Shown here: piece after piece, positions 4,984-22,036 of the stretch | How the letters are laid out: every line of letters starts with the position of its first letter | Position numbering within the stretch: position 1 is the stretch's first letter | DNA from: a virus | Direction: 5' to 3' (one strand) | IMG/VR virus record: IMGVR_UViG_3300042914_001959 | Coordinates: 1-22,036 of that record | DNA length: 22,036 nt | Notes under the pieces: generated by a model | Told to the model about the DNA's origin: nothing | What the model saw: only the letters and a program-made list of their open reading frames with translations | Database searches by the model: none | Made by a program: the position numbers and the translations under genes

Positions 4984-5041
4984 AACACCCTAGTCGAGCC
5001 GCTCGTTAGCCGCTCGCAAAATCAATCGTGCCTCTTATCAG

Positions 5042-5094
5042 ACGCGCGAACACTCGAAACCATTCCCCACGGTTTCCGGTGTCGCGCGTTTTTT
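5042..5094 (+). terminator. Long hairpin with T-run just upstream of the capsid gene
   Basis: Stem of three blocks: 5042-5048 with 5083-5089 (7 bp, ACGCGCG/CGCGCGT), 5050-5053 with 5079-5082 (4 bp), and 5056-5061 with 5071-5076 (6 bp, GAAACC/GGTTTC), with a 9-base loop and TTTTTT at 5089-5094. It looks like a strong intrinsic terminator, yet it sits only 34 bases before the capsid start codon. It may insulate the capsid gene, act as an attenuator, or protect the 5' end of the capsid mRNA. Confidence 0.7.
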
Positions 5095-5127
5095 CGTGCG
5101 ATCCGGGCCAGAACCAGGAGCACGAAA

Positions 5128-6509: not shown

Positions 6510-6537
6510 GCGGCGCGGCACTAGTCGCGCCGCTCTT
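6510..6537 (+). terminator. Terminator after the capsid gene
   Basis: A perfect 8-bp GC stem (GCGGCGCG 6510-6517 with CGCGCCGC 6526-6533), loop GCACTAGT, tail TCTTTCC. It starts 20 bases after the capsid stop. Confidence 0.65.
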
Positions 6538-6569: not shown

Positions 6570-7028
6570 ATGATTGCTGCTCAGTCTGATAAATTTGTTC
6601 CGGTCACTCCCCCTGCTGCGATTGTCGATAACGCCAGTCTCACGACGTCAACCGTGGACACCGCTGGCTTTGCATACGCTCGATTCTTCCTGTACCTCGG
6701 CGCGACCGACATTGCAATGACGGCGCTCAAGTTGCAGGAAAGCGACGACAGTGGAATGAGCGGAGCCGCTGACGTCACCGGCGCCATCTATGGCACGAGC
6801 AACGGCATCAGCGGAAGCGCTTCAACGCTGCCGTCTGCGACCGATGACAATAAGTGCTTCGTTATCGAAGTGGACCTGCGTGGCCGCAAGCGCTATCTCG
6901 ACCTCGTGGCGACTTGCGGCGACGGCGCAGCGGGCACGTATGCCACGGCGTTCTGCTTGTTGTCTCGTGCGAGCGACGCGCCGGTGAGTGCATCCGAGCG
7001 CGGCTTCGGCAACATTCTGCGAGTCTAA
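6570..7028 (+). CDS. Probable capsid decoration or minor head protein
   Basis: 152 residues with AAGGA about 8 bases before the ATG. The sequence is rich in Ala, Thr, Gly and Ser with alternating beta-type stretches (FAYARFFLYLGATDIAMTALKL near 33-55; KCFVIEVDLRGRKRYLDLVATC near 95-116) and no catalytic motif. A small beta-rich protein encoded directly after the major capsid protein is usually a decoration (capsid-stabilising) protein. That function is inferred from position and composition only. The post-capsid hairpin lies between it and the capsid gene, so it is likely made at a lower or separately controlled level. Confidence 0.6.
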   Translation: MIAAQSDKFVPVTPPAAIVDNASLTTSTVDTAGFAYARFFLYLGATDIAMTALKLQESDDSGMSGAADVTGAIYGTSNGISGSASTLPSATDDNKCFVIEVDLRGRKRYLDLVATCGDGAAGTYATAFCLLSRASDAPVSASERGFGNILRV

Positions 7029-7031
7029 CCA

Positions 7032-7247
7032 ATGCTCGTCGAACTAATCCGACCGTGGATGGGAAAGCGAATTGGCCAGCAGGTTCTGCTGGCTGACGGC
7101 GTGGCGAATCTGTTATTGAGGCTCAAGACTGCAAGGCTACCCGATGAGAAACGCGCTACTGATAACAGCGGCACAATTCGAGCCGGTCAGCCTCCAGCAA
7201 CTCAAGACACAGGTGCAGCTAGCCGACGATTACCGCGAACACGATAA
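7032..7247 (+). CDS. Small phage protein overlapping the connector gene
   Basis: 71 residues, starting 4 bases after the preceding stop without a clear ribosome site. The first 35-40 residues (MLVELIRPWMGKRIGQQVLLADGVANLLL) follow the pattern of short head-region phage proteins of the type V-x-L-x-R-P-x-x-G-x-x-x-G ... L-x-D-G-V-A-x-x-L. The rest runs 104 bases into the next gene in another frame and looks like random sequence. Either a real small gene with a meaningless tail, or a gene whose stop was lost by a frameshift. Function unknown. Confidence 0.45.
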   Translation: MLVELIRPWMGKRIGQQVLLADGVANLLLRLKTARLPDEKRATDNSGTIRAGQPPATQDTGAASRRLPRTR

Positions 7248-9846: not shown

Positions 9847-9915
9847 GTGTGGCACGTTATCGCCGCGCTGCTGGTTTTCGTCGTGAGACGAATCGCCACA
9901 CCCCAGCAGCGCGGC
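9847..9915 (+). promoter_or_regulatory. Predicted RNA pseudoknot with embedded hairpin, upstream of the tail chaperone gene
   Basis: Three exact pairings: GTGTGGC 9847-9853 with GCCACAC 9895-9901 (7 bp); GCCGCGCTGCTGG 9862-9874 with CCAGCAGCGCGGC 9903-9915 (13 bp); and between them TTCGTC 9877-9882 with GACGAA 9887-9892 around a GTGA (GNRA-type) tetraloop. The first two cross each other, giving an H-type pseudoknot with an inserted hairpin. There is no T-run after it (ACCTTATT), so it is not a simple terminator. The ribosome site of the next gene (GAGG 9925-9928) is 10 bases downstream and free. Confidence 0.55.
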
Positions 9916-9937
9916 ACCTTATTCGAGGATCTTGGTC

Positions 9938-10306
9938 ATGAGTTTGAAGGACAAATTGCGTCAAGGATTCGAGCGGCGTTTCATCACAGTGACCGTCCCC
10001 CTCGTGGGCGACGTTCGATTACGTTCCTTATCATCGTCGGAAATGCGAGCGCTTCGCAATTCGTTGACCGATGACAAAGGCGAGACAATCAAACCACGCA
10101 TCGAGCGACTGAACGAAATACTGGCTTCAATGACGATTGTTGATGAGGCTGGCAATCTCGAATTCACCGAAGGCGAAGCGATGAGCGGCGCATTCGACTC
10201 GATGGATGCCGCATCGGCGAAGGTGCTGTTTTCGCACGTCGTCAGGCACACCGGCTTTACCGCGGACAGCGACTGGCAAGCAATCGAGGGCGCAGCAAAA
10301 AACTAA
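9938..10306 (+). CDS. Tail assembly chaperone, G-like (unshifted product)
   Basis: 122 residues from ATG 9938, with GAGG (9925-9928) 9 bases upstream. A TTG at 9932 is in frame but only 3 bases from that site. Content is helical and acidic (SLKDKLRQGFERRFITV, LRSLSSSEMRALRNSL, SMDAASAKVLFSHVV). The position between tail tube and tape measure, and the ending ...GCA AAA AAC TAA, identify it as the lambda G equivalent: a chaperone that coats the tape measure protein during tail assembly and is absent from the virion. Its last codons form the frameshift site that leads to the longer G-T product. Confidence 0.82.
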   Translation: MSLKDKLRQGFERRFITVTVPLVGDVRLRSLSSSEMRALRNSLTDDKGETIKPRIERLNEILASMTIVDEAGNLEFTEGEAMSGAFDSMDAASAKVLFSHVVRHTGFTADSDWQAIEGAAKN

Positions 10307-15695: not shown

Positions 15696-17090
15696 GTGGC
15701 GGCTTCATTTACCGATTGCGAAATTGACGCGAAAACATTGACGTGCATACACTGCCAAGAGCCGATTAAACGCGCGACCATTCGCCGCGTTTGTAGTGCG
15801 CTGGGCGTAGCGAAGGTACTCGCCGAGAAAGAACTATCTTGGGCCAGCAAGGCGAGCAACTACGCGGCAGCGATCACCAAGTGGCTGAAAGCAGGCCGAC
15901 TAACACGAACGCAAGCCGAGATTGACCAGCTACTCACCGAGCACTGCACACCGTGCGAGCGATATCGAGACGGCAACTGCTCTGCGTGTGGTTGCCGGGT
16001 AAATCGCGGAACGTTGCCGTTTTTGAACAAGCTCGCAATGGCGACTGAATCGTGCCCACTCGGAAAGTTTCACGGCAGCGACTACGTAGCACCAGCAAGG
16101 CCAGGACTTCGCGTTGCGTTTGTAATCCCATGCCTAATGACTGGTGGCGTGGAGTCGTGGCTGTGGTCGCTCGTTAGCCAGTGGCACCGCGGCGACAAGA
16201 TCAGGTGCACCGGCGTGGCGTTATCGAGCGGCAGCTATTCGCCAGCAATGCTCAGGCAACTATCGAGCCTTGTGCCGATCGTGGGACCGGTGGAAGCGGA
16301 CGGAGTAGCATATTCGTCGAACCCGATCGACTCAGCAAAGGCAATTGGAGCGGACGCCGACGTGGTGATTGTGTGGGCGCAGATGCCAACGGTTATCGCC
16401 GCAGCGAAGTCATCAGGAGCAATGACTGTAGGCGTGTCGCACGCGTGTGAGGAATGGTGGGCACGCGGCGCAAGGCACGTTGACCGCTGGGTAGCGGTGC
16501 ATCAGGTCGCGGTTGGTACGCTGCCCGATGGACAAGCGGATGCCATCATCGGAAACGGCGTTGATGTCGAGCGCTGCGTTAGCGGACTGTCAAAAGCAGA
16601 GGCACGCGAGCGGCTAGGGATTCCACCAGAGGCGAAGGTGTACGGTTACATTGGTCGTTTTGCGCACGAAAAACGAGTGCCGGAAATCGCGGGCGCACTC
16701 GATCACCTGGGGCCAGAGTGGCATTGCCTGCTTGTCGGCAGTGGGCGTGAACAACCGGCCACACGTGAACGACTGCACATAATGGCGCCAAGTCGCGATA
16801 TCGGCGACTTGTGGAGAGCCTGTGACGTGGGCGTCATTGCGTCGAAGTATGAATCGTGGTGCCTAGCTGCCGACGAGATCCACGCAGCGGAAATACCGCT
16901 GGTAAGTACGCGGGTTGGTGCCATCATTGACGCGGCTGAGTGGCTGTCCGATGAGCCAACGCCCCAGGAAATCGCAGCGGCAATCGAAGCTTCGCATGGC
17001 AGACAATCGCCAGGACTGCCCCCAGAGCGCACGGCGAAAGCAATGGCTGACGCCTGGGCCCAGTGGCTCGTCAATTGTCGTAAAACCTGA
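15696..17090 (+). CDS. Fusion of a cysteine-rich zinc domain with a GT4-type glycosyltransferase
   Basis: 464 residues, GTG start with a weak ribosome site. Residues 1-125 hold ten cysteines: C17-x-x-C20, C84-x-x-C87, C95-x-x-C98-x-C100 and C120 in ESCPLGKF. The 'C-x-x-C ... C-x-x-CGC ... CPLGK' arrangement is like DUF6171-type zinc modules. Residues 138-464 are a GT-B glycosyltransferase: GGVE at 150-153 (acceptor side), GNGVD at 286-290, GRFAHEK at 320-326 (donor phosphate loop) and the E-x7-E pair E386/E394 of family GT4. It probably transfers a nucleotide-activated sugar, perhaps to a virion protein or a host surface molecule. Its 3' end overlaps the minus-strand gene at 17071 by 20 bases. 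Confidence 0.82.
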   Translation: MAASFTDCEIDAKTLTCIHCQEPIKRATIRRVCSALGVAKVLAEKELSWASKASNYAAAITKWLKAGRLTRTQAEIDQLLTEHCTPCERYRDGNCSACGCRVNRGTLPFLNKLAMATESCPLGKFHGSDYVAPARPGLRVAFVIPCLMTGGVESWLWSLVSQWHRGDKIRCTGVALSSGSYSPAMLRQLSSLVPIVGPVEADGVAYSSNPIDSAKAIGADADVVIVWAQMPTVIAAAKSSGAMTVGVSHACEEWWARGARHVDRWVAVHQVAVGTLPDGQADAIIGNGVDVERCVSGLSKAEARERLGIPPEAKVYGYIGRFAHEKRVPEIAGALDHLGPEWHCLLVGSGREQPATRERLHIMAPSRDIGDLWRACDVGVIASKYESWCLAADEIHAAEIPLVSTRVGAIIDAAEWLSDEPTPQEIAAAIEASHGRQSPGLPPERTAKAMADAWAQWLVNCRKT

Positions 17091-17277
17091 TGCCAGTAGT
17101 AGATATCACACGCGGCGCACGCACATAATCCAGCCCAGATGGCGGCAGTGGTCGCGATCTTTTTATCTCCGCTGCCGTGCGTAAATGCTCTCGGCGACAA
17201 GCGGCACACGGCTCATCGGTGCCAGGGCTAACCGCTCTTTTTTGACAGTATTGGCATTTTGTTCGGTCTTTTTTCAT
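17071..17277 (-). CDS. Minus-strand small zinc-ribbon-like protein
   Basis: 68 residues on the minus strand with an AAGGA site about 9 bases before its ATG (positions 17275-17277). C8-x-x-C11, twelve residues, C24-x-x-C27, then a basic helix (RREHLRTAAEIKRSRPLPP) and a polar tail. The well-spaced CxxC pairs, the ribosome site and the lack of any competing + gene over most of its length make it the one believable minus-strand gene in the window. It converges on the glycosyltransferase (20-base tail-to-tail overlap) and is divergent from the accessory operon at 17456. The arrangement 'CxxC ... PG ... C-x-A-C-R' recalls the protein at 4730-4948. Function unknown; possibly a regulator read at another phase of infection. 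Confidence 0.6.
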   Translation of the reverse strand: MKKDRTKCQYCQKRAVSPGTDEPCAACRREHLRTAAEIKRSRPLPPSGLDYVRAPRVISTTGIRFYDN

Positions 17278-21268: not shown

Positions 21269-21478
21269 ATGAGCGTATTACCACCGAGTTACACTGAGGT
21301 TGCAAGAGCTTGCCTGAACTGCAGGCATAGCGGCTGGCATACAAAACGCGCCGTTTATATCTGCATGAAAATAGATAGCAAAGACGCAACGTTTGACGAT
21401 CGAATTGTTGACACCTACGGCCACTGCGCCGAGTTTGAGTGGTGCGAGGACGAAAGTGAAGATCATTCCAGCCCGTAG
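21269..21478 (+). CDS. Small cysteine-rich phage protein
   Basis: 69 residues; CAGGAA about 10 bases upstream. C15-x-x-C18-R-H (ACLNCRHSGWHTKRA), then YICMKIDSKDAT, and VDTYGHCAEFEWCEDE with an acidic tail. The layout 'C-x-x-C-x-x ... C-x-x-x-D ... V-x-x-x-x-x-C-x-x-F/Y' is seen in many tiny phage proteins of unknown role that probably bind zinc. The leader before it (21234-21265) is an AC-rich run of ACCAACC-like repeats. Confidence 0.65.
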   Translation: MSVLPPSYTEVARACLNCRHSGWHTKRAVYICMKIDSKDATFDDRIVDTYGHCAEFEWCEDESEDHSSP

Positions 21479-21678
21479 TCACGAGGGCGCGTAACGGCTT
21501 GAATGCCGGTGACGCAAGACCGCGATGAGAAGTTTGGTTTCAGCCTGGCCGCTACCCCAGGTGCGATCGTGACAGGTGGCAAAATCTTCAGTGTGGAGCG
21601 CGCTAGTTGCTCGCTCCCCCTCGCGCCGGCGTGTGCTGGCGCGAGGGCTCTTTTAAGGATTGGTGAGGGGAGTAAAAA
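21479..21678 (+). other. 200-base interval without a convincing gene, with RNA-like pairing
   Basis: Possible stems: GCGT 21489-21492 with ACGC 21512-21515 enclosing CGGC/GCCG (21495-21498 with 21505-21508), and CCTGG 21544-21548 with CCAGG 21557-21561, before the strong terminator at 21618. A 59-codon frame from ATG 21503 to 21682 overlaps the next gene as ATGA but runs through the terminator hairpin and has no ribosome site. A small RNA ending at the terminator, or a leader for the following gene, fits at least as well. Confidence 0.35.
21618..21655 (+). terminator. Strong intrinsic terminator
   Basis: A perfect 10-bp GC stem (CCCTCGCGCC 21618-21627 with GGCGCGAGGG 21638-21647), a 10-base loop and CTCTTTT. 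It isolates the downstream gene at 21679. Confidence 0.8.
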
Positions 21679-21855
21679 ATGACTTCGATGAGGCGATTTT
21701 ATGCGCAGCAGGAACGCGGCTGCGACATGCTGGCGCCAGACCACGACTACGTGTATGAGGAAGAATGGCATCGCACCGACGATGCGATTAAGACGCCTGA
21801 AAAGCCTTGCACGACTGAGGCCGATCAGGTAAAAGAGACGCCGGAAGAATCCTAA
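21679..21855 (+). CDS. Small acidic protein of unknown function
   Basis: 58 residues, with GAGGGGAG 5-6 bases before the ATG, one of the best ribosome sites in the window. After a short basic start (MTSMRRFYAQQERG) the protein is strongly acidic: DHDYVYEEEWHRTDD and then EADQVKETPEES at the end. No hydrophobic core segment or motif is obvious, so it may be partly disordered. Small acidic phage proteins include DNA mimics and enzyme inhibitors, but nothing here proves such a role. It lies between a terminator and the RNA-like element at 21862. Confidence 0.6.
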   Translation: MTSMRRFYAQQERGCDMLAPDHDYVYEEEWHRTDDAIKTPEKPCTTEADQVKETPEES

Positions 21856-21861
21856 AAAGTA

Positions 21862-21977
21862 TTGGTTTTGATCTTTGCTCGTCGCCGAGCGTCGGCAGTA
21901 GGTGACTACGCCGGGGGAAGTCTCGCGCGATTCTTGAGCGCCAACCAGGCCCTAGGACCGGTCGGCGACGAGCTTTT
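21862..21977 (+). ncRNA. Structured RNA-like element ending in a T-run
   Basis: A perfect 12-bp stem, GCTCGTCGCCGA 21877-21888 with TCGGCGACGAGC 21962-21973, encloses 73 bases and is followed by TTTTCATTT. Inside is a hairpin of CGGC-a-GTAG (21893-21901) with CTACGCCG (21906-21913) around a GTGA tetraloop. GCCGA 21884-21888 can instead pair with TCGGC 21892-21896, and upstream TGGTT 21863-21867 with AACCA 21943-21947 inside the big loop. Such competing pairings suggest a switch or attenuator, or a small RNA with its own terminator. No known riboswitch consensus is recognised. It precedes the gene at 21999. Confidence 0.5.
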
Positions 21978-21998
21978 CATTTGAACGAAGGTGGCATT

Positions 21999-22036
21999 AT
22001 GAAAATCGTAAAGGGGAAGCAGCAAAGGCCGCGCCG
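21999..22036 (+). CDS. Start of a gene cut by the window end
   Basis: ATG with GAAGGTGG 5-6 bases upstream, open to the end of the window. Only 12 residues are visible, beginning MKIVKGKQQRPR, strongly basic. Nothing further can be said about its function. It follows the RNA-like element at 21862-21977, which may control it. Confidence 0.55.
   Translation, partial: MKIVKGKQQRPR

Follow-up and report, generated by a model that had tools for sequence, protein, structure and literature searches.

The locus

What kind of element separates the last two reading frames at the right-hand end of this phage record, and does it act on the gene at 21999? The window, that is, the whole stretch of DNA that was analysed, is a virus record of 22,036 bases from a tailed phage; its terminase, portal and major head protein match PHROGs families, and its protease and tape-measure labels were assigned from gene order alone, without a family match. 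The element sits in a gap of 143 nt that separates a 58-codon frame from the gene at 21999 (Table 1). The original prediction drew here a 12-bp stem closing a 73-base loop, an inner hairpin with a GTGA loop, a T-run and two complementary pairings, all of which are indeed present in the DNA. The coordinates of these parts, together with those of the neighboring genes and of the other leader hairpins discussed below, are collected in Table 1.

Table 1. Positions of the element, its parts, the adjacent frames and the leader hairpins in the window
Feature	Position	Strand	Description
Closing stem, 5' arm GCTCGTCGCCGA	21877-21888	+	perfect 12-bp inverted repeat
Closing stem, 3' arm TCGGCGACGAGC	21962-21973	+	perfect 12-bp inverted repeat
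T-run TTTTCATTT	21974-21982	+	abuts the stem; TTTT at 21974-21977
Loop of closing stem	21889-21961	+	73 nt; z +0.72 relative to its own shuffles
Inner hairpin CGGC-A-GTAG-GTGA-CTAC-GCCG	21893-21913	+	8 bp, one bulged A, GNRA (GTGA/GUGA) loop
40-codon open frame	21862-21984	+	TTG start at 21862, TGA end at 21984; spans the element; coding-like codon score
58-codon frame	21679-21855	+	upstream of the element; in phase with the 40-codon frame
Shine-Dalgarno-like GAAGGTGG for gene at 21999	21987-21994	+	read from the sequence
Gene downstream of the element	starts 21999 (21999-22036 in the window)	+	cut by the record end
Capsid-gene leader hairpin	5041-5090		hairpin end to ATG 37 nt
Leader hairpin of gene at 6570	6510-6533		hairpin end to ATG ~35 nt
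Hairpin before 58-codon frame	21618-21647	+	13 bp (12 Watson-Crick and one G-U), CTCTTTT tail; 31 nt to 21679
Element hairpin	21877-21973	+	25 nt before ATG at 21999

Stem and T-run

The closing stem has 12 perfect base pairs, or 14 if one mismatch is allowed, and 11 G-C pairs. Two features of an intrinsic terminator are found, namely a stem that is G+C-rich and 4 bp or longer and a U-run that abuts it (TTTTCATTT, 21974-21982), the run after the stem (UUUUCAUUU) being a modest one.

The possibility that the inverted repeat arose by chance has to be weighed at this point, as the repeat was picked out of 22 kb by the original prediction and 0.2 perfect 12-bp repeats with a loop of up to 150 nt are expected per shuffled window. 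Two are seen, however, and both perfect repeats of at least 12 bp in the window fall within gaps separating called genes. A perfect 12-bp repeat followed directly by TTTT on the + strand occurs in 0 of 1000 shuffled windows. When the 143-nt gap is shuffled alone, a perfect 12-bp repeat appears in 6 of 20,000 trials, and stems with 12 or more pairs and a T-rich tail are expected 0.05 times per shuffle, compared with the two distinct ones observed (21618-21647 and 21877-21973). The abutting TTTT and the position in a gap make a chance repeat a quite unlikely explanation.

Folding of the loop and alternative pairings

The exact 97 nt of the hairpin fold with a z of -3.1, a value that we attribute to the closing stem, and the whole gap folds with a z of -1.63. 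With a z of +0.72, the 73-nt loop is a little less stable than its shuffles. The inner hairpin reaches a z of -3.2 for its own 21 nt, a number to be read with the fact that this hairpin was chosen after the fact. Of the whole element, only the closing stem, together with the T-run that abuts it, is above chance.

We have also considered a regulated switch, in which an aptamer or a protein-binding RNA would lie inside the terminator loop and the 5' arm would form an antiterminator with 21921-21939. Such an arrangement has a precedent in the terminator-embedded aptamer of the HMP-PP riboswitch (PMC6478431), and stepwise folding does provide a candidate alternative: in the most stable structure of the RNA that still lacks the 3' arm, at -38.7 kcal/mol, 21921-21939 is taken up by the 5' arm, and the leader at 21863-21870 pairs with 21953-21960. 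However, this fold is little better than what shuffled sequence gives, with a z of -0.45 for the RNA lacking the 3' arm (-0.45 to -0.9 up to 21961) and of -1.9 for the 63-nt rod alone. The more-than-chance structure expected of a riboswitch or other structured RNA is thus seen neither in the loop nor in the fold that precedes the terminator, there is no Rfam match, and no homologues were found in which a conserved loop could be identified. A switch of this type is accordingly rated as improbable.

The competing pairings named in the original prediction stand as complementarity, GCCGA with TCGGC (21884-21888 with 21892-21896) and TGGTT with AACCA (21863-21867 with 21943-21947). Both are 5 bp long, which in our judgement is the kind of match that any GC-rich 100-mer provides. 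Since both the loop and the state preceding the 3' arm are ordinary, neither aptamer-like complexity nor meaningful competing pairings are supported.

The fold is stable and rod-like and has a U-run at its end, which would also suit a free-standing small RNA that ends at about 21978 and is transcribed from its own upstream promoter. A search limited to the sigma-70 pattern found no promoter-like site nearby, and no relatives of such an RNA were found, so that we hold this explanation to be quite unlikely.

The open frame through the element

A different reading is that a small gene fills the gap, coding for a protein or leader peptide of 40 codons, and that the hairpin overlaps it. The frame begins 6 nt past the preceding stop and ends 14 nt short of the next ATG. 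Its codon score has a z of ~2.6 relative to its own open shuffles, which is within the range of real in-frame 120-nt windows (2.29 +/- 0.98), while 0 of 127 out-of-frame windows on the + strand reach 2.5 and the relatives' capsid-leader gaps score near zero (0.07 +/- 0.93). The G+C content at the three codon positions, 0.66/0.51/0.61, also resembles that of the genes, 0.60/0.46/0.61. On the other hand, the frame is open by chance in 32% of the shuffles, its TTG start is weak and without a good Shine-Dalgarno site, and 8% of antisense in-frame windows reach 2.5 as well. The synonymous-only score of 0.09 does not decide the matter, the values being 0.133 +/- 0.104 in frame and 0.029 +/- 0.114 out of frame, and no homologue was found in Pfam, PHROGs or phage records. 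With a small gene, moreover, the stem and its T-run would be partly coincidental. We consider a gene here unlikely, although it is to be taken seriously; were it real, it would illustrate how readily a very short gene within a GC-rich gap is mistaken for structured RNA.

The small frame and a terminator can both hold, as a leader frame overlapping the terminator. In that case, ribosomes translating the frame would block formation of the hairpin, and the downstream gene would depend on translation of the leader. A full translation-dependent attenuator, with a 40-codon leader peptide over an oversized terminator, an antiterminator in the loop, and ribosome or ligand occupancy switching the downstream gene, is a combination to which we assign little probability.

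Searches for relatives

Relatives of the phage were located via the terminase, portal and capsid proteins, and none of them has a recognisable counterpart of the window's right-hand end. Protein baits from 20611, 19959, 21269 and the glycosyltransferase likewise gave no relatives sharing that end. A methyltransferase bait matched many phages that have nothing else in common with the window. One contig, binned in a Pyrinomonadaceae MAG, shows 41% identity in the capsid gene and 56% in the counterpart of the gene at 6570, and judged by these sequences it is a distant relative of the window phage.

No homologue of the element itself was found in the related phage records (IMG/VR relatives), and blastn of the region against phage and plasmid collections returned chance matches only. 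The comparison with Rfam, suggested by the original prediction, was negative, with no match at the gathering score and nothing meaningful at E up to 10. Single-sequence covariance models, which are weak models, were run for the element and for the fold at 21478-21573, and neither gave a match in 0.9 Mb of related loci and 162 genomes of one bacterial class.

A few candidates were rejected. An exact 20-mer of the stem has a sole match in viral contigs, in an apparent coding region of an unrelated 101-kb contig, and this is taken as chance. The same holds for a look-alike stem followed by TTTTCCTTTGA in L134, which falls within a gene of 257 codons that bears a CxxCH motif. A haem-binding-like CxxCH motif occurs in a gene on the contig of a relative, G007. 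The ends of a transposon with 12-bp terminal repeats were considered as well, but a second copy was not found and there is no clear target duplication.

Leader hairpins in the phage family

A hairpin with a U-rich stretch lies shortly upstream of four gene starts in the window, those of the capsid gene and of the genes at 6570, 21679 and 21999. The first of these was compared over 11 sequences, the window and 10 relatives. The capsid hairpin has a covariation score of 0.494, compared with 0.292 +/- 0.036 when shuffled and at most 0.195 with the partner strand slid; 91.7% of the alignment cells are paired, and both sides have changed in 5 of the 11 pairs. There are 15 cells with both sides changed, against 5.7 +/- 2.0 in shuffles; since some of the relatives are close kin, these cell counts exaggerate how many changes are independent. 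A T-run follows the hairpin in most relatives, and in many of them a second hairpin is predicted around the capsid Shine-Dalgarno site. In the window, the leader of the major capsid gene (5041-5127) shows the corresponding order of a composite hairpin, a U-run and then the predicted Shine-Dalgarno hairpin. The element fits the leader-hairpin layout of this phage family, in which hairpins stand 25-37 nt before start codons.

Proposed role of the element

The agreement in layout and the little space between the T-run and the Shine-Dalgarno site lead us to prefer, at a probability of about 0.5, a terminator- or attenuator-type leader hairpin with an oversized loop in the phage's rightward gene string, attenuating transcription into the next gene. 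The 12-bp G+C-rich stem and the abutting UUUUCAUUU would form as RNA polymerase leaves 21973, and a part of the polymerases would halt at about 21975-21982. The gene at 21999 would then be expressed by read-through only, because its Shine-Dalgarno site begins ~10 nt past the T-run and leaves no room for a promoter in between. With such read-through, to whatever degree, the hairpin would set the dose of this gene relative to the upstream genes. No ligand would be involved.

The stem, the T-run, their joint improbability and the similar layout at other genes argue for the terminator-type hairpin, and the 73-nt loop, the modest U-run, the failure of the searches to find a homologue and the coding-like frame through the element argue against it. 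Of the original prediction, the part that envisaged a phage element shaped like a terminator or attenuator before the gene at 21999 is retained in this qualified form, on the basis of the stem and U-run 25 nt before the ATG and of the layout at three other genes, one of them covarying. The proposal of a complex regulatory RNA or an unknown riboswitch class is not supported, considering the loop that is no more structured than shuffles, the negative Rfam result, the searches that found no homologues with which covariation could be assessed, and the coding-like 40-codon frame. In kind the element is known, a leader hairpin that resembles intrinsic terminators, and nothing points to an aptamer or to a new class of RNA.

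If the terminator-type reading is true, this is another phage that doses genes via leader hairpins just before start codons. A more useful by-product, and a testable one, is that in the relatives a covarying hairpin with a U-run is kept immediately ahead of the major capsid gene.

Other features of the window

Several other features of the window deserve mention. The frame 9932-10306 has a slippery heptamer, A AAA AAC, at its end (10297-10303), and the -1 frame stays open as far as 10620, just ahead of the tape-measure-like gene; this is likely a programmed -1 frameshift that serves the tail assembly chaperones. The second perfect inverted repeat (9862-9915; 13 bp, 28-nt loop) lies before the tail chaperone genes and has no clear T-run after it. 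Just upstream of the 21618-21647 hairpin, the region 21478-21612 contains a three-hairpin fold (21478-21573; z -2.1) closed by GTCACGA/TCGTGAC, which has the look of a second structured RNA; this region may instead be a small gene, because the frame 21503-21682, which overlaps part of it, scores coding-like. The frame 7032-7247, starting in the 7029-7143 gap, has a strongly coding-like score (z 3.0 over its part in the gap) and probably represents a small gene that overlaps the frame at 7144. On the minus strand, a 68-codon frame with two CxxC pairs (17071-17277), situated in a 365-nt gap and opposite to the other genes, looks like a small zinc-ribbon gene.

Comparison with known systems

Like intrinsic (Rho-independent) terminators, the element has a G+C-rich stem that runs straight into a U-run, and it lies between two genes of the same orientation. 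It differs from them in directly preceding a Shine-Dalgarno site and in its loop of 73 nt, in line with the original prediction's remark that ordinary terminators do not have such a loop: in terminators mapped by experiment the median loop is 4 nt, as obtained with a hairpin finder that allowed short loops only (PMC12207403), and terminator loops are mostly shorter than 13 nt (PMC8355165). The canonical limits of TransTermHP, a loop of 3-13 nt and a stem-loop of at most 59 nt (quoted in PMC12207403), are exceeded by both the 73-nt loop and the 97-nt hairpin. We therefore file the element under the broad kind, a stem with a U-run, and outside the canonical terminator class, because of the loop limit.

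The HMP-PP (thiS) riboswitch also carries extra sequence inside a terminator stem, and a competing fold can be drawn for it as for the element (PMC6478431). Its loop, however, binds a ligand and is conserved over 400 representatives (PMC6478431), whereas that of the element has no excess structure and no homologue was found for it, and the gene context here lacks a metabolic link. That riboswitch class was revealed by a conserved loop, a conserved alternative pairing and a consistent gene context, none of which is seen for the element. By analogy with the known terminator-embedded aptamers (PMC6478431), such an arrangement is not impossible here.

The capsid leader hairpin of the element's own phage family is a continuous composite with a small terminal loop and covaries, in contrast to the element with its 73-nt loop and no relatives found. 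The two are nevertheless alike in their order, a hairpin followed by a U-run and then by a Shine-Dalgarno site and an ATG within 25-40 nt.
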